Positions 25,854 through 45,417 of a DNA stretch of 49,372 bases are shown in pieces; the first letter of the stretch is position 1; each line of letters starts with the position of its first letter. The notes below the pieces were generated by a model, which was not told the DNA's origin, made no database searches, and saw only the letters and a list, made by a program, of their open reading frames with translations. The DNA comes from Rhizobium sp. Q54 (GTDB lineage Bacteria; Pseudomonadota; Alphaproteobacteria; SMXS01), in contig CAMDTB010000021.1 in assembly GCA_945907245.1 (NCBI GenBank), forward strand, positions 1-49,372, given 5' to 3'. The translations under genes were made by a program, and so were the position numbers.

Positions 25854-25990
25854 CCTGCACCACCGCCGCTGTTTCGCGGCTGAAGGCGACCGTTAAATGT
25901 TCCGGAAAACTTCCGACAAACATTCATCTCTCGCCCAACCCGTACAACTTGATATATTCCCTGCCGGAATCGACAGGGGAGACAAAGTTC

Positions 25991-28767: not shown

Positions 28768-29175
28768 ATGGCCGAGTCATTTTCCGGCTTCTCCGAAGAG
28801 CCCGCGGGCCGGCTAGCACTGATCGACGAAATCCGCGCCGGCCTGTCGTTCGAGATGGTCGCCGCTGCCGCGGAGGCGCTCGATCTCACGGTCAACGATC
28901 TGGCGGCGTTCGGGGTCATCCCCGTCCGCACGCTGTCGCACAGCCGCCAGGGCGGCCGGTTCAGCCAGGCCCAGTCCGACCGGGTCGCCCGGTTCTTTCG
29001 TATCTGGCGGCACGGGCGCGATACGTTCGGCTCCCCCGAACAGGCGCGGCGCTGGCTGGAACGGCCGAGCCGCGTACTGGGCGGCGCGGCGCCCATGTCC
29101 CTGCTGGATACCGAAGAAGGCGCCCGGCTGGTCGAGGACACCCTGTTCCGGATCGATCACGGCCTCGCGGCCTGA
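28768..29175 (+). CDS. xre: Xre/MbcA/ParS-type antitoxin
   Basis: 135 residues. An Xre-like HTH is near residues 25-55 (LSFEMVAAAAEALDLTVNDLAAFGV), then RTLSHSRQGGRFSQAQSDRVARFFRIW, and a C-terminal DUF2384 toxin-binding part (FGSPEQARRWLERPSRVLGGAAPMSLLDTEEGARLVEDTLFRIDHG). This is the standard antitoxin of RES toxins; it binds the toxin and its own promoter. The toxin start overlaps its stop (TGATG). AAGG lies 7 nt before the ATG. Confidence 0.93.
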   Translation: MAESFSGFSEEPAGRLALIDEIRAGLSFEMVAAAAEALDLTVNDLAAFGVIPVRTLSHSRQGGRFSQAQSDRVARFFRIWRHGRDTFGSPEQARRWLERPSRVLGGAAPMSLLDTEEGARLVEDTLFRIDHGLAA

Positions 29176-29636
29176 TGCCGTCCGCCACCGCGTGGCGGCT
29201 GACGCGCCGGCCATGGGCCGACCTGTCCGGCGAGGGGGCGCGGCGCCATGGCGGGCGCTGGAATTCTCCCGGCCGGCCCGTCGTCTACCTGTCCGAGGAG
29301 GCCGCGCTGCCGCTGCTCGAAGTGCTGGTTCACCTCGACCTGCCGCCGGATCTGCTGCCGCCCGACTATGTGCTGATGCGCGTCGACCTGTCGGCGCTGG
29401 AGCAGGCCGCGCCCGGAGGCTGGCTCGAGGATGGCCCCGACACCTTGCTGGACGAGCGCGACAGTCGCGCCTGGGGCGACCGCTGGATCGCCGAGGCGCG
29501 AACGCCGGTGCTGCGCGTGCCCTCGGTGCTGGTGGCCGAATCCGCCAACCTCGTCCTCAATGTGCGGCATGGGCTGGCGGCCGCGATCCCGAGCCCCGGC
29601 CAGCGCCCGTTCGCCTTCGGCCCGCGGCTGCTGTGA
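29175..29636 (+). CDS. res: RES-domain toxin (NAD+-degrading)
   Basis: 153 residues. The RES signature reads GEGARRHGGRWNSPGRPVVYLSEEAALPLLEVLVHL. Arg28, Tyr38 and Glu49 have the 10- and 11-residue spacing of the catalytic set in characterised RES toxins, and a late serine lies in SVLVAESANLVLN. Known RES toxins deplete NAD+ and stop growth. It is coupled to the antitoxin by TGATG. The active-site residues are present, so it is probably functional. The pair sits between two P450 genes on the same strand. Confidence 0.93.
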   Translation: MPSATAWRLTRRPWADLSGEGARRHGGRWNSPGRPVVYLSEEAALPLLEVLVHLDLPPDLLPPDYVLMRVDLSALEQAAPGGWLEDGPDTLLDERDSRAWGDRWIAEARTPVLRVPSVLVAESANLVLNVRHGLAAAIPSPGQRPFAFGPRLL

Positions 29637-34782: not shown

Positions 34783-34795
34783 CTTTCTCCCTCGC

Positions 34796-34884
34796 CGTCT
34801 TTGCGAGGAGCGAAGCGACGTGGCAATCCAGACTCTGGTGCAGCGGCACCAACGCCTGGGTTGCCGCGCTTCGCTCGCAACGAC
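34796..34884. repeat. REP-like imperfect palindrome
   Basis: The left arm (34796-34831) contains TTGCGAGGAGCGAAGCG and GGCAATCCAG. The right arm (34855-34884) contains CCTGGGTTGCCGCGCTTCGC and TCGCAACGAC, the inverse with mismatches. The GCGAGGAGCGAAGC...GCTTCGCTCGC pattern is the common dispersed palindrome of many alphaproteobacterial genomes. It lies in the 179-bp gap after the dehydrogenase pair and could also end their transcript. Confidence 0.75.
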
Positions 34885-34961
34885 ATCGAGGGTTATTATT
34901 TCCCGCTAGCCTTATCAACTCTCCGATCCAGTTTGCTGGTTATCAGGAGGACCGTATCATT

Positions 34962-35192
34962 ATGCGTCGGCTCAAATTATTTCGAATGGGTGCTCATCAG
35001 GTCATCCGTATCCCGCGCGAATTAGAGATCGAGGGAGATACGGTTATCATACGGAAGCAGGGTAACCGCCTGGTCCTTGGGCCTGTCAGGCACCAGTCTC
35101 AGTCTCTTTTGGAGTTTCTCGCAACTTTGGAGCCGATTGACGAAGAGTTCCCGGAAATCGACGACCCGCCCCCGGAACCCGTCGACCTGTAA
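34962..35192 (+). CDS. AbrB/VapB-like antitoxin without partner
   Basis: 76 residues. The swapped-hairpin AbrB pattern reads LFRMGAHQVIRIPRELEIEGDTVIIRKQGNRLVLGP, matching VapB antitoxins (compare [23 protein letters not shown] in the VapB at 45083). The acidic tail (EFPEIDDPPPEPVDL) is where VapB proteins hold their toxin. No PIN-domain gene follows; the next gene is on the opposite strand 3 bp away. AGGAGG is 11 nt before the ATG. It is either an orphan or a relic of a lost vapBC, and its neighbour is a REP-like repeat. Confidence 0.82.
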   Translation: MRRLKLFRMGAHQVIRIPRELEIEGDTVIIRKQGNRLVLGPVRHQSQSLLEFLATLEPIDEEFPEIDDPPPEPVDL

Positions 35193-35195
35193 CCG

Positions 35196-35963
35196 TCAAA
35201 AAATCGGCCCGATGATCCCCAGTTGCGCGGCCTTCGCCACCGCCTGCGTTCGCGTCACGGCGTTCAGCTTCTGGGCGGCATTTTCGATGTGGAAGCGCGC
35301 GGTGGACGGCGAGAACGCCAGGATGACCGCGATTTCCTGGTCGGTCTTGCCGCGCGCGGCCCAGGTCAGGCACTCGATCTCGCGGCTGGTCAGATAGATG
35401 AACGCGGTCTCCGGCGCGCGGATGCCGCGGGCGGCGTCGGCGATCTGCATGAATTGCAGCGCGGCGAGCAGCAGCGTGCGCCGGTTATCGCGCCAGATCG
35501 GCTCGATGTCCAGATCGGGTTCGCGGCTCAGCCATGAGACCGACCCGACCCGGCCGCGCGACAGGTGCGTCGGCACGATGATGGCGCCGTGGATGCCCTG
35601 GCCGACCTGCCAGTCCAGCACCTTGCGCTGGATCGGCTCCAGCGCCTGCTCCTGCGGGAACGGATGGTTTGCCTGCCAGAAGAACGGCAGGTGCTGGAAC
35701 CGGCAGGCGTGCGTGGTCGGGCTGATCAGCGTGTAGTTCTGGTCGACCCACTCGTCGATCGCCGTCTTGTCCCAGCCGAACAACTCGGCGAGGCGGTTGC
35801 CGGCCTCGTCGGTCAGCGGCACGGTCGTCGAGATATCGTCGAGCGCCGCGACCAGCGGAATGCCGATCAGTTCGCCGATGCGCCGCAGCAGGCCGACGCC
35901 CTCGGCAAGCCGGGTCGCGCGCTCCAGCGCGTCGAGGCATGCATTGACGTCGTTCTGTTCCAT
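35196..35963 (-). CDS. LuxR-family regulator with autoinducer-binding-like domain
   Basis: 255 residues. The C-terminal GerE-type HTH is [44 protein letters not shown] (about 193-236). The N-terminal domain resembles the acyl-homoserine-lactone fold ([32 protein letters not shown]), but the key Asp of the lactone pocket appears replaced in the YTLISP segment, so the ligand may differ. No luxI is seen. I chose ATG at 35963; a TTG at 35984 would overlap the putative lux box. It is divergent from P450 C, which it probably controls. Confidence 0.92.
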
Positions 35964-35983
35964 CCGCGACCGGCGCTCCCTCA

Positions 35984-36003
35984 ACCTGTCGATTCCGAGA
36001 GGT
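35984..36003. promoter_or_regulatory. lux-box-like 20-mer between the LuxR gene and P450 C
   Basis: ACCTGTCGATTCCGAGAGGT is an imperfect dyad (7 of 10 positions) with the outer ACCTGT and AGGT of the classical Vibrio lux box and the right length. It lies 20 bp from the regulator ATG and 62 bp from the P450 ATG, a natural operator place for both promoters. Confidence 0.65.
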
Positions 36004-36065
36004 AGACGTTACAGGCCCGTGCGCCCAAACTCCACGCCATCGGGAATACGGGGAAGCGTACCGAG

Positions 36066-37310
36066 ATGAACAAGCCAGAGCAGTTCAGCCTGCTGGACCC
36101 TGCCGTGCAGCAGTGTCCTTTCGGCTATTACAAGGTGCTCCGCGAGGCGGCGCCGGTCTACCTGATGCCGGAGACCGGCATGTACATCGTCACGTCCTAT
36201 GACCTGCTGATGGAGGTGATGAAGAACAACCGGGTCTACTCGAACCTGGCGCCCTCCGGCCGCCGCGCCGGCCTGTACTGCGAGGAAGCCGAAAAGATCA
36301 TCAACGAGAAGGGCTATGGCCGGTTCATGCCGACCATCGTCAACAACGACCAGCCCGGTCACACGGTCTACCGTGGCCTGGTCAACGACGCGTTCCGCGC
36401 CGGCCGCATCCGCCAGATGGAAGCCTACATCACCGAGGTGGTGACCCAGCTGGTCGAGAAATTCGCCGGCAAGGGCGAATGCGACGCCGTCGCCGACCTG
36501 GCTGTGCCGGTGCCCATGTATGTCATCGCCGACCAGCTCGGCGTGCCGCGCGAGGATTTCCAGAAGTTCAAGGAATGGTCCGACGCCTGGGTGATCGGCC
36601 TCGGCATGAAGGTGCCGGACGCGGTGCTGATCGACGCCGCCGAGAAGGTCGTCGAGATGCAGCACTACATGATCGCCCGCATGGCCGAGCGCCGGATCGA
36701 ACCGCGCGACGACATCATGAGCGATCTCGTCCAGGCCACCTACAATGGCGAGCGGCCGCTGACCGACAGGGAAGTGCTGTCGATCGTCGAGCAGATCCTG
36801 GTGGCTGGCAACGAGACCACCACCAACGGCATCGCCAACGGCCTGCAGCAACTCGCCGAAGATCAGGGCCTTCAGGCGCGGCTGCGCGCCAACCCGGAAC
36901 TGCTTCCCAAGTTCGTCGAAGAGATCCTGCGGGTCGAATCACCGGTTCAGGGACTGTTCCGCTATGTGCTCGAGGACACCGAACTGGGCGGCGTGCGCAT
37001 CCCGAAGGGCGCGACTGTGATGATCCGCTATGCCGCCGGTAACCGGGACGAGGCCAAGTTCGACCACCCCGAGGAGTTCGACCTGGACCGCAAGAACAAC
37101 GGCGCCCACATCGCGTTCGGCTCGGGCATCCACCACTGTGTCGGATCCCAGCTGGCCCGCGCCGAGATGCTGGTCAGCTTCCGCGCCTTCCTCGACCGGT
37201 TCAGCCGCTTCGAACTGGCGGTGCCGTCCTCCGAAATCCACTACCACCCCAGCTTCGCGCTGCGGGGACCAACGAAACTGCCGCTTCGGCTGACGCCGAA
37301 AGCTGGTTGA
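36066..37310 (+). CDS. Cytochrome P450 (C)
   Basis: 414 residues. It has AGNETTTNGIANG near residue 246, EEILRVESP near 285 and FGSGIHHCVGSQLARAE with the heme thiolate at about Cys358. It is less like P450s A and B than they are like each other. ATG at 36066 follows ACGGGGAAG. It starts a plus-strand run with the Rieske oxygenase 62 bp later. Expression is probably set by the divergent LuxR-type protein. Electron donor genes are not visible. Confidence 0.95.
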   Translation: MNKPEQFSLLDPAVQQCPFGYYKVLREAAPVYLMPETGMYIVTSYDLLMEVMKNNRVYSNLAPSGRRAGLYCEEAEKIINEKGYGRFMPTIVNNDQPGHTVYRGLVNDAFRAGRIRQMEAYITEVVTQLVEKFAGKGECDAVADLAVPVPMYVIADQLGVPREDFQKFKEWSDAWVIGLGMKVPDAVLIDAAEKVVEMQHYMIARMAERRIEPRDDIMSDLVQATYNGERPLTDREVLSIVEQILVAGNETTTNGIANGLQQLAEDQGLQARLRANPELLPKFVEEILRVESPVQGLFRYVLEDTELGGVRIPKGATVMIRYAAGNRDEAKFDHPEEFDLDRKNNGAHIAFGSGIHHCVGSQLARAEMLVSFRAFLDRFSRFELAVPSSEIHYHPSFALRGPTKLPLRLTPKAG

Positions 37311-37372: not shown

Positions 37373-38650
37373 ATGCTGACGCAAGAGCAGATCCGGGATA
37401 TCCGCCAGCAGATCGACTTCGAATTCAAGCGCAAGTCGCCGCCGGAAGGCTTCCCCAAGTTCCCCGACCTGCCCGCCGGCCGCTACAACGACGAAGAGTT
37501 CTTCGAATTGGAGAACAAGCACTACTGGAGCAAGGTCTGGATGCTGGCCGGCACCCTCGACGAGATTCCCGAGGTCGGCAACTACATGCTGTGGGACATT
37601 GCGCGCCAGCCGATCGTCATCGTGCACGGCAAGGACGGTGTCGTCCGCTCGTTCTACAACACCTGCCGCCACCGCGGCGCGCCGGTGGTCACCGAGAAGT
37701 ACGGCACCGCCGAGCACGGGCTGGTCTGCGGCTATCACGGCTGGGTCTACAGCCACGAGGGCGATCTGGTCGGCATCCGCGACAAGCGCGACTTCGTCGA
37801 TTTCGACATGGAGTGCCGCAGCCTCTATCCGGTGAAGACCGAGATGTTCGGCAAGCTGATCTTCGTCAACTTCAACGAGGATGCGCCGTCGCTATGCGAC
37901 TACATGGGCCCGATCTCCGACGAGCTGCAGGAGTTCCAGTTCCAGAACCTGCGCCTGGTCGACCACTATGTGTGGGACCTGCACTGCAACTGGAAGATCG
38001 CCATGGAAGCCAACATGGAGGTCTACCACGTGAAGTCGATCCACCCGCAGACGGTGGACCCGAGCCTGGATTATCGCGGCAACGTCAACACGCTCTACCC
38101 GCAAGGCCACTCGCGCATGGTGGCGCCGAACCGGGTCGCCAATCGCAAGTCGGGCTACGCCCAGGCGGGGACCGACCTGCGCGAGATTGAGACGGTGGGC
38201 GAGATCGGCCGCACCTGCACCCAGTCCTACCACATCGAGCCGAACTGGGTCTCGCCGCTGGGTCCGGTGCTGTTCCCGGTGCTGCATTTCTGGCCGGTGA
38301 ACATTCGCGAGACCAAGTACGAGATTCGCTGGTTCGCCGCCGACTGGGGCACGGGTCCGGTCCCGGAGATCTTCCGCAAGCAGATCGAGTACTTCAACGT
38401 GGTGATCACCGAGGACACCCAGTTCGGCGACGCGATCCAGAAGTCGGTGGACTCATACGCGTTCAAGGGCGTGCCGCTATGCTACCAGGAGGCGCGCATC
38501 TACCACATGCACCAGAACATCGACAAGGTCATCGGCGCCAACATCGTGCCGGCGCATCTGCGCGCCGAGCCGGTGATCGGCGAGGAGTGGATTCACCCCA
38601 ACGACACCAGCGAGCGGCTGCGCCAGCAGCAGGCGATGGCGGCCGAGTAG
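37373..38650 (+). CDS. Rieske ring-hydroxylating oxygenase, alpha subunit
   Basis: 425 residues. The Rieske [2Fe-2S] ligands are C98 and H100 in CRHRGAP and C119 and H122 in CGYHGW. The catalytic iron ligands are H219 and H224 in EVYHVKSIH, preceded by Glu216 where most enzymes have a bridging Asp; carnitine oxygenase CntA also uses Glu there. The C-terminal half is the helix-grip domain. It lacks an obvious beta subunit or reductase next door, so it may be homotrimeric and use a generic reductase. ATG follows AGGAGACC. A likely role is O- or C-H oxidation in the same pathway as the P450s. Confidence 0.94.
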   Translation: MLTQEQIRDIRQQIDFEFKRKSPPEGFPKFPDLPAGRYNDEEFFELENKHYWSKVWMLAGTLDEIPEVGNYMLWDIARQPIVIVHGKDGVVRSFYNTCRHRGAPVVTEKYGTAEHGLVCGYHGWVYSHEGDLVGIRDKRDFVDFDMECRSLYPVKTEMFGKLIFVNFNEDAPSLCDYMGPISDELQEFQFQNLRLVDHYVWDLHCNWKIAMEANMEVYHVKSIHPQTVDPSLDYRGNVNTLYPQGHSRMVAPNRVANRKSGYAQAGTDLREIETVGEIGRTCTQSYHIEPNWVSPLGPVLFPVLHFWPVNIRETKYEIRWFAADWGTGPVPEIFRKQIEYFNVVITEDTQFGDAIQKSVDSYAFKGVPLCYQEARIYHMHQNIDKVIGANIVPAHLRAEPVIGEEWIHPNDTSERLRQQQAMAAE

Positions 38651-38784: not shown

Positions 38785-39324
38785 ATGAGCCTGATCCGCT
38801 ATCCCATCCAGCAATACGCCTATGTGGTCGACGACATCGAGGCGGCGTGCATGCGCTGGGTCGATCTGGTCGGCGCGGGCCCCTTCTTCCTGATGCCGCA
38901 TCACAAGTCGCGCGACACCGTCTATCGCGGCAAGCCGTGCGACGTCGACGTGTCCTATGCGTTCGGCCAGGCCGGGCCGGCGCACATCCAGCTCATCCAG
39001 GTCCACAATGACGAGCCGTCCTGCTATGGCGACATGTACAAGAAGGGCGAGCAGGGCTTCCACCACTTTGCCATCCTGGTGCCGAACATCGAGGAGGAGA
39101 AGAAGCGGTTCGAGAAGGCCGGCTGCGAGTCTGTGACCGAGCTGTTCTCGTCGGCGCGCGTGGCCTACATGGATGCCCGCCACCTGTTCGGCTGCTTCGT
39201 CGAACTCTACCAGGACAATCCGCAGGTGCGCGCGTCGTTCCAGGAATGGAAGGACCTGCACGAGGCCTGGGACGGCAAGACCGATCCGATCCGCGTCCGG
39301 CACTGGACCCCGCCCAAGGAATAG
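38785..39324 (+). CDS. VOC/glyoxalase-superfamily protein
   Basis: 179 residues with two beta-alpha-beta-beta-beta units: IQQYAYVVDDIEAACMRWVDLVGAGPF and FHHFAILVPNIEEEKKRFEKAG. Candidate metal ligands are the His in GFHHFAIL and a Glu in CFVELYQ. VOC members include dioxygenases, epimerases and lyases. It has GGGGAG with an ATG 8 nt further. It lies downstream of the Rieske gene behind a hairpin; same strand as the CoA transferase next to it. Confidence 0.85.
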   Translation: MSLIRYPIQQYAYVVDDIEAACMRWVDLVGAGPFFLMPHHKSRDTVYRGKPCDVDVSYAFGQAGPAHIQLIQVHNDEPSCYGDMYKKGEQGFHHFAILVPNIEEEKKRFEKAGCESVTELFSSARVAYMDARHLFGCFVELYQDNPQVRASFQEWKDLHEAWDGKTDPIRVRHWTPPKE

Positions 39325-39446: not shown

Positions 39447-40670
39447 ATGACACAATCCAGGCGCGGACCGCTCGACGGCGTTCGGGTGATCGACATGTCG
39501 ACCGTGCTGCTCGGTCCCTATGCGGGCCAGATTCTCGGCGATCTGGGCGCCGACGTGATCCGGGTGGAATCGCCCAAGGCCGACATGACCCGCTGGGCGG
39601 GACCCTCGGCCCATCCCGGATTCTCGCCGATCTTCATGAACTGCAACCGCAACAAGCGGTCGCTGTGCCTGGACCTGAAGAAGGACGGCGCGCTGGAGGC
39701 GCTGGTCGAGCTGGTCAGGACCGCCGACGTATTCCTGCATAATGTCAGACTGGAGGCTATCGAGCGCCTGGGCCTGGGCTACGAGGCCGTGCGCGCCATC
39801 AAGCCGGACATTGTCTATGTCCATTGCGTCGGCTTCGGCAGCGAGGGCGCCTTCGCCGGCCGGCCAGCCTATGACGATCTGGTCCAGGCGGCATCGAGCG
39901 CGGTCAGCCTCAACCGGCTGATCGACCCGGACGAGGAGCCGCGCTACATCGCCACACTCGCCGCCGACAAGACCACCGGCCTGCACGCGGCCTACGCCAC
40001 CATGGCCGCCCTGTTCCACCGCGAGCGGACGGGCGAGGGCCAGTTCGTCGAGGTGCCGATGCTGGAGAGCTTCGCCTCGTTCCTGATGATCGAGCACATG
40101 AACGGCCATACCTGGGAACCGCCGCAGGGCGACTATGGCTATCACCGCATCATCAACATCAACCGCAAACCCTATCGGACGAAGGACGGCTTTATCTGCA
40201 TCATGCCCTATTCGACGGATCAGTGGCGAAGCGCGCTGCGCCTCGGCGGCATCCCGATCACCGACGACGACCCACGGCTGCAGACCATGGGCGGTCTCGC
40301 CCGCCATTTCCGTGAGCTTTACGGCCTGCTCTGCGAGGTCACGGTAACCCGTACCAGCGACGAATGGATGACCCTGCTGACCGAGCAAGACATCCCGGTG
40401 ATGCGGGTCAACCGGGTCGAGGACCTGAAGACCGAGGAGCACCTGTCCAGCGTCGGCTTCTTCGAGGAACGCGAGCATCCCACCGAAGGCGTGTGGCGCT
40501 CCATGCGCCAGCCAGTGAAATTCGCGCAAACGCCCGCCTCAGTCCGCCGCGACCCGCCGGGTCTGGGCGAGCACAACAGGGAAGTGCTGCTGGAAGCGGG
40601 GCTGAGCGCCGAGACGGTCAGCGCGCTGGAAGCATCAGGCGCGCTGCACAGCCGGTTGCCGAAGGATTAG
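39447..40670 (+). CDS. CaiB/BaiF family CoA transferase
   Basis: 407 residues. It has VRVIDMSTVLLGPYAGQILGDLGADVIRVESP at the start, NRNKRSLCLDL near 70 and ADVFLHNVR near 95. The probable catalytic Asp is in TLAADKTTG near 175. It forms a CoA thioester by transfer, probably activating the oxidised product of the P450 or Rieske steps. ATG follows ACGGGGGAAC. Its stop overlaps the convergent EthD-like gene by 4 nt. It is distinct from the CoA transferase at 13088. Confidence 0.92.
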   Translation: MTQSRRGPLDGVRVIDMSTVLLGPYAGQILGDLGADVIRVESPKADMTRWAGPSAHPGFSPIFMNCNRNKRSLCLDLKKDGALEALVELVRTADVFLHNVRLEAIERLGLGYEAVRAIKPDIVYVHCVGFGSEGAFAGRPAYDDLVQAASSAVSLNRLIDPDEEPRYIATLAADKTTGLHAAYATMAALFHRERTGEGQFVEVPMLESFASFLMIEHMNGHTWEPPQGDYGYHRIININRKPYRTKDGFICIMPYSTDQWRSALRLGGIPITDDDPRLQTMGGLARHFRELYGLLCEVTVTRTSDEWMTLLTEQDIPVMRVNRVEDLKTEEHLSSVGFFEEREHPTEGVWRSMRQPVKFAQTPASVRRDPPGLGEHNREVLLEAGLSAETVSALEASGALHSRLPKD

Positions 40671-44687: not shown

Positions 44688-45086
44688 TCACCAGTTCTCG
44701 ATACGCAGCGGTTCGGGAGCGCGTGAGAACGCCTTGTCGTTGGTGACCAGCACGGCTTCGGTTGCGACTGCATGGGCAGCGATCATCATATCGAGCGGTG
44801 AAAGCGAGACGCCGTTCGACTCACACGCTGCGCGCAACTCCGCGTAAGTTCGCGTCACATCGTGATCCCACGCCAGCACATCGACCCGAAGCAGGAACTG
44901 GCGGACCCGTTCGGTCAGCCTGGGGGGGTAGTTTCGACGCGCAACTCCATAGAGCAGTTCGCCTTCCGTCACCGCCGAAATGGCGATCTCGTCCATGGGA
45001 AGAGATGCAAGTCGCGCGCTGATCTTTGGTCTGTCACCGCGAATGACGTAACTGGCGATGTTGGTGTCGAGCAGATAGCCGCTCAT
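44688..45086 (-). CDS. vapC: VapC toxin, PIN-domain ribonuclease
   Basis: 132 residues. The PIN active-site acidic residues are Asp in GYLLDTN (residue 6 region), Glu in VTEGELLYG near 40, Asp in [12 protein letters not shown] near 95 and Asp in VTNDKAF near 113. It cleaves RNA in a Mg-dependent way in the family. ATG at 45086 overlaps the vapB stop (ATGA); a TTG at 45095 is the alternative. It is a full-length toxin and looks intact. Confidence 0.92.
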
Positions 45087-45346
45087 TCCTTCCAATCCTT
45101 GAAAGGATCACGGTCCTGGGACAGCTGGTCGCGGTCAGCAGGACCCATGTAGTCGTCCGGCACACTACCCTTGTCATAGAGCTCGAAAAGGCCGTCCCAT
45201 GAATTGGGCTTGCTTGAAAGGATCACGTCGCCGCTCTTCGGATCACGGCGTACGAAGACCTCCGTGCCCTCAAACCGGAATTCCATGGGAAGCCTTACTG
45301 CCTGACTGCGGCCTGTCGTAAAAAGCTTCGCGGTTCGATGTCCCAT
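45083..45346 (-). CDS. vapB: VapB antitoxin
   Basis: 87 residues. The AbrB-type N-terminal fold reads [29 protein letters not shown]. The acidic C terminus ([24 protein letters not shown]) is the toxin-binding tail. GGAGG lies 7 nt before the ATG at 45346. It is coupled to vapC by ATGA. Two operators stand 19-71 bp upstream. Some residues match the lone antitoxin at 34962. Confidence 0.92.
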
Positions 45347-45364
45347 TGGCAGCCTCCAGCAATA

Positions 45365-45417
45365 GATAGCTACCATGGTATATATCAACGATGGGGATAG
45401 CTATCAAGGTAGCTATC
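45365..45417. promoter_or_regulatory. Two 22-bp operators of vapBC
   Basis: GATAGCTA-N6-TAGCTATC (45396-45417) is a perfect dyad. GATAGCTA-CCATGG-TATATATC (45365-45386) is a close second copy. Centres are 31 bp apart, three helical turns. Same half-sites and N6 spacing suggest cooperative binding of VapB or VapBC. Confidence 0.75.

Follow-up and report, generated by a model that had tools for sequence, protein, structure and literature searches.

A 20-bp sequence, ACCTGTCGATTCCGAGAGGT, which resembles a lux box, lies between the gene of a LuxR-family regulator (LuxR1) and the divergent gene of a P450 (P450 C). We consider it likely that this 20-mer is the operator of LuxR1, a predicted solo regulator that would not respond to acyl-homoserine lactones (AHLs), or of a close paralog, and that the P450 C-Rieske operon is activated from it in response to a ligand from the pathway. 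The operator had been proposed in a first-pass annotation of the same DNA; this reading gained support from the conservation of the site in seven species, its recurrence before oxygenase genes, a fixed distance to the -10 element and the retention of the palindromic core.

The locus and the candidate operator

The DNA analyzed here (the window, 49,372 nucleotides, about 13% of which is non-coding) constitutes contig C21; the alphaproteobacterial genome to which it belongs measures 3.3 Mb and is split over 136 contigs. The relevant features are as follows.

35196-35963, minus strand: LuxR1, LuxR-family regulator, 255 aa, start ATG at 35963
35984-36003, plus strand: lux-box-like candidate operator ACCTGTCGATTCCGAGAGGT, core ACCTnTC-n6-GAnAGGT, based on exact position, conservation and recurrence
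36002-36007, plus strand: putative -35 element GTAGAC, overlapping the end of the box, placed from the geometry of the -10 element and the box
36026-36031, plus strand: putative weak -10 element CAAACT, 22 nt past the box, invariant in all seven orthologs
36066-37310, plus strand: P450 C, 414 aa, ATG at 36066, Pfam p450
37373-38650, plus strand: Rieske oxygenase alpha subunit, second gene in the P450 C run, by similarity
38785-39324, plus strand: Glyoxalase/VOC-family protein, third gene of the run
39447-40670, plus strand: CoA-transferase family III, fourth gene of the run

LuxR1 contains an autoinducer-binding domain (Autoind_bind, PF03472, 1.5e-12) and a helix-turn-helix domain of the GerE type (PF00196, 2.4e-14). 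The closest solved sequences to P450 C are numerous bacterial P450s, including a CYP125 ancestor and steroid C26-monooxygenases of the CYP142 type. The Rieske alpha subunit resembles carnitine / glycine betaine monooxygenase, and its match to carnitine monooxygenase is confined to the N-terminal half. The matches of the P450s (many bacterial P450s, including steroid C26-hydroxylases) and of the Rieske protein do not name a substrate for the cluster.

Several small elements lie around these genes. A small gene and a RES-domain-like gene, by eye a toxin-antitoxin-like pair, are located between P450 A and P450 B (28768-29636); the pair is present in genomes G002 and G003 and absent from G004 and G005, in which the P450 genes are adjacent. 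A REP-like palindromic repeat element (TTTGCGAGGAGCGAAGCGACGTGGCAATCC ... GGTTGCCGCGCTTCGCTCGCAACGAC) occurs at 34795-34893, downstream of an acyl-CoA dehydrogenase gene. Between this dehydrogenase and luxR1 there is a short ORF (34963-35192) that looks by eye like an AbrB/VapB-type antitoxin, with no toxin partner alongside, and a VapBC-like pair was recognized by eye at 44688-45388.

The 20-mer was found exactly where the first-pass annotation had placed it, and it is the sole match to its sequence in the window at up to three mismatches. It lies, as had been claimed, in the only gap between the LuxR-family gene and P450 C (35964-36065, 102 bp), it is a 7/10 dyad, and it keeps the length (20 bp) and the ends (ACCT...AGGT) of a lux box. 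The dyad alone is weak evidence, because a 20-mer with a dyad of at least 7/10 turns up in 36% of the shuffled gaps. The ends carry more weight; they appear in 0.04% of shuffled gaps, and this is the single 20-mer in the 49 kb that has them. A scan of the window with a generic lux-box consensus was set aside, as its matches were only weak and scattered (43 with three mismatches or fewer versus 27 expected).

A 16/20 match before an MFS gene (25959-25978, minus strand) was also considered as a second operator. It was not counted, because it lies just past a TATAGT-type -10 element in the relatives, runs into the Shine-Dalgarno sequence AGGGGAG and is absent from one relative. The same place holds an inverted repeat, CCCTGCCGGAATCGACAGGG, which lies just after a -10-like TATATT/TATAGT and extends into the Shine-Dalgarno sequence of the MFS gene. 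Several relatives have counterparts at the same position (GCCTGTCGAAGACGACAGGG in one of them), and the repeat might form a hairpin in the leader or serve as another operator.

Conservation of the site within the genus

Orthologs of LuxR1, 80-100% identical, are present in all seven genomes of the genus. Loss of the site in close relatives had been set beforehand as a refutation of the proposed operator; the box is instead kept in 7/7 genomes, and a scan of the homologous loci located it in each case between LuxR1 and P450 C in the same divergent layout. Four copies, that of the window included, are identical, two have one change and the most distant one (ACCTATCGAATCTGAGAGGT) has three, all of which fall outside the core dyad. 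The invariant columns amount to 16 of 20 in the box versus 59 of 170 four-fold sites (35%) in P450 C (binomial P 4e-5). The sequence AGACGTTACAGG directly after the box and CCCAAACTCCA further on are likewise invariant in the seven orthologs, which is what -35 and -10 regions should show. Conservation hence extends past the 20-mer and covers the whole promoter, not the box alone.

In sister genera of the same family, the homologs of which are 57% and 43% identical to LuxR1, no such box was found in the gaps beside the LuxR homologs. The regulator is still found in the same cluster there, facing other genes.

The ligand pocket of LuxR1 and the quorum sensing system of the genome

In an alignment to LasR and RhlR, the Asp of the lactone pocket is Ser81 in LuxR1, which bears out the replacement suspected in the first-pass annotation. 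With reference to TraR, residues W57, Y61, D70, P71, W85 and G113 correspond to A68, W72, S81, P82, W96 and G126 of LuxR1. Three of the six positions are therefore replaced, and of the WYDPWG set of AHL receptors LuxR1 keeps only P, W and G. The Asp at this position in TraR binds the amide of the AHL (PMC4414361).

The altered pocket is not peculiar to LuxR1. Its LuxR2 paralogs have FWSPWG, and the homologs from sister genera have YWSPWG, FWSPWG or FWSAWG; the LuxR1/LuxR2 clade can be described by [AFYI]WS[PA]WG, while in the canonical LuxRs that these genomes also encode the residues are WYDPW. The W and the S of the pocket are kept in most relatives from sphingomonad plasmids, and a Cys-Arg pair (SPTTHACR) is common to most of the LuxR1 clade. 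An AlphaFold model of LuxR1 built with five sequences had a mean pLDDT of 46, and the assignment of the pocket residues rests on the alignment. These residues suggest that the pocket of LuxR1 no longer fits AHLs. The idea that the regulator senses something other than a lactone is thus strengthened by three pocket changes out of six, a pattern found in the paralogs as well and in most of the distant relatives. The identification of the ligand with the substrate of the pathway is something we infer.

The first-pass annotation had noted that no luxI is present. This holds for the window and not for the genome, in which a single luxI match was found on another contig, with its own canonical luxR alongside (G000:C29:20817-21302); none is next to luxR1. 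LuxR1 has the attributes of a LuxR solo, namely an autoinducer-binding and a GerE domain and no adjacent luxI. Since the genome does encode a LuxI, the missing synthase does not exclude AHL sensing by LuxR1. The box could be a LuxR-family operator at which LuxR1, as a receptor of the AHL made by this LuxI, places the oxygenase operon under quorum control. The pair of luxI and canonical luxR in 6/7 genomes of the genus and the retained equivalents of W85 and G113 in LuxR1 are in line with such control. We consider it improbable, however, since the three replacements, including that of the amide-binding Asp (PMC4414361), run through the LuxR1/LuxR2 clade, and since the luxI promoters of these genomes carry a box with a different sequence. 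This box, CCTACGG-n4-CCGTAGG, is located upstream of luxI in six genomes of the genus (L078:1369-1386 in G000:C29) and is absent from the window. Both the altered pocket and the unlike box of luxI speak against AHL sensing by LuxR1. Because the two boxes differ, the two circuits appear to be separate at the DNA level, and the LuxR1 circuit should be insulated from the quorum sensing of the cell.

Recurrence of the motif and promoter geometry

A search of the seven genus genomes for ACCTnTC-n6-GAnAGGT with up to one mismatch gave 40 places, versus 14 for the reversed pattern that served as background. About half of the matches (19 counted) are intergenic and adjoin Rieske, P450, SDR or LuxR genes, a share to be set against the non-coding 13% or so of the window; most of the others are intragenic, as background would be. 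The matches were classified by simple ORF calling and these counts are approximate; orthologous promoters are not independent, and the number of independent promoter families is about seven or eight. Besides the LuxR1-P450 C gap, the promoter sites belong to Rieske genes (in the LuxR2 clusters and on G003:C2), two further P450s and one SDR gene. LuxR paralogs are found near several of these sites, and the SDR site is beside another LuxR gene. Any one of the boxes might belong to LuxR1, LuxR2 or the Asp-bearing LuxR3. They range up to a perfect palindrome and are often more symmetric than the box of LuxR1, the symmetry of which ranks near the bottom of the set.

A near-perfect palindrome, ACCTGTCAACCCTGACAGGT or a close variant, occurs between an SDR gene and a divergent gene (L041:5775-5794 and L140:2480-2499). 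The LuxR beside this palindrome is of a third type, which keeps the pocket Asp (LYDPWR).

With 25 sites lined up by their boxes, the hexamer most similar to a -10 element was located 21-23 nt downstream in most of them. The hexamers include GATAAT, AATAAT, CATAGT, TAGAGT and TAGGAT, and CAAACT is the one at each of the seven LuxR1 sites. Matches to the -10 element average 3.6/6 versus 2.18 in shuffles, none of 2000 shuffles reaching 3.6, in a test to which every ortholog of a promoter contributed as a site of its own. In the LuxR2 clusters, the bases immediately past the box at the Rieske sites are GACA or GACG, which gives a -35 element of the GTGACA type. The spacing between box and -10 in these putative promoters, as read from sequence, fits that of a class II lux promoter, where the centre of the 20-bp box is at -42.5 (PMC4471428).

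These data are compatible with the following scheme. LuxR1 would take up a ligand other than an AHL, the likeliest being the substrate of the oxygenase/acyl-CoA catabolic cluster around it or an early intermediate from that cluster. The liganded dimer would then bind the box, the right end of which abuts the weak -35 element, with CAAACT as -10, and would recruit RNA polymerase to the P450 C-Rieske-VOC-CoA transferase genes in the manner of a class II lux promoter. Because the box lies only 20 nt from the start codon of luxR1, negative autoregulation is probable; LuxR1 bound to the box would also limit transcription of its own gene.

Operators of TetR-family regulators are short palindromes as well, and the 20-mer might belong to a regulator of this or another family, with LuxR1 acting elsewhere. 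A TetR-like gene, recognized by eye from its N-terminus, does occur near the P450 D boxes in L040, L043 and L044. We nevertheless regard this as unlikely, since no TetR gene was seen near the LuxR1-P450 C, Rieske 2/3 or SDR sites while LuxR paralogs are near several, since a position 21-23 nt before the -10 suits an activator and not a repressor, and since the sequence and length of the box match lux boxes. It is slightly less likely still that the 20-mer is a mere part of a conserved core promoter with incidental partial symmetry: the frequency of 7/10 dyads in shuffled gaps and the equal conservation of the flanking promoter bases would agree with this, but the rarity of the ACCT...AGGT ends in the same shuffles and the presence of the same motif, often more symmetric, at the same -10 distance in unrelated promoters do not.

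Comparison with known regulators

The predicted LuxR1 operator shares with the Vibrio fischeri-type lux box the length of 20 bp, the ends ACCTG...AGGT, the dyad and, for its putative promoter elements, the right end at the -35 and a -10 about 22 nt further on (PMC4471428). It differs in its inner bases (TCGATTCCGAGA) and its weaker symmetry, and the target is a catabolic oxygenase operon instead of luxI.

The first-pass annotation had recommended a comparison of the ligand pocket with other solo LuxR proteins. The plant-associated solos OryR, PsoR, PipR and NesR resemble LuxR1 in being solo genes with Autoind_bind and GerE domains and in the change of Y61 to W (PMC10134790). The likeness ends at W57 and D70: these solos have W57M and Y61W with the rest of the pocket kept, whereas LuxR1 combines Y61W with W57A and D70S, and its clade has A, F, Y or I at W57, D70S, the CR pair and oxygenase neighbours. 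PluR/PauR of Photorhabdus also have a substituted WYDPWG set, and a non-AHL ligand is expected for them, but their sets (TYDQCS, TYDQYI; PMC4414361) retain Y and D, while LuxR1 loses Y and D and keeps P, W and G.

TeiR/TesR are described in the source passages as LuxR-type activators of steroid catabolic clusters that respond to a substrate or metabolite (PMC8700777, PMC12239570). Steroid catabolism is already known to have LuxR-type regulators, which gives the idea of LuxR1 as a catabolic sensor a precedent. The likeness of LuxR1 to TeiR/TesR of Comamonas testosteroni and to LuxR-type proteins beside sphingomonad steroid genes is one of description, and the source passages report no lux box for TeiR/TesR, unlike the situation at LuxR1. 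In the literature consulted we found no direct precedent for a LuxR solo linked to P450/Rieske genes. A paper on dibenzofuran catabolism in Rhodococcus reportedly deals with a LuxR solo.

To our knowledge, most LuxR solos have neither a known ligand nor known targets. In the present case the regulator, its candidate operator, the target operon and the paralogs come together, and a search for the ligand becomes practical by way of the linked oxygenases, the substrates and intermediates of which are the compounds to try. The fold of a quorum sensing receptor would here be re-used for catabolic control, and a different DNA site would separate it from the LuxI/LuxR pair of the cell. We tentatively suggest, as one conceivable generalization, that the solos in which Ser replaces the AHL-binding Asp ([A/F/Y/I]WSPWG plus CR) form a clade of alphaproteobacterial catabolite sensors, with a genus-wide P450/Rieske regulon and a lux-box variant of their own, separate from the box of the quorum sensing pair. 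The less usual point is the combination of a Ser-for-Asp clade with a lux-box variant that is spread before oxygenase genes.

LuxR-like solos encoded on plasmids of Novosphingobium, Sphingobium and Croceicoccus are 35-38% identical to LuxR1 over most of the length and have catabolic neighbours. Most of them share the SP..CR motif and the W at Y61. Their neighbours differ in being of the beta-oxidation type (acyl-CoA dehydrogenase, thiolase, often 2-oxoacid dehydrogenase). Among these relatives a clear box was found in one, the 37%-identical regulator of Sphingobium sp. TomTYG65, in which ACCTATCACTACTCATAGGT, an 8/10 dyad, lies between the regulator and a divergent acyl-CoA dehydrogenase gene.
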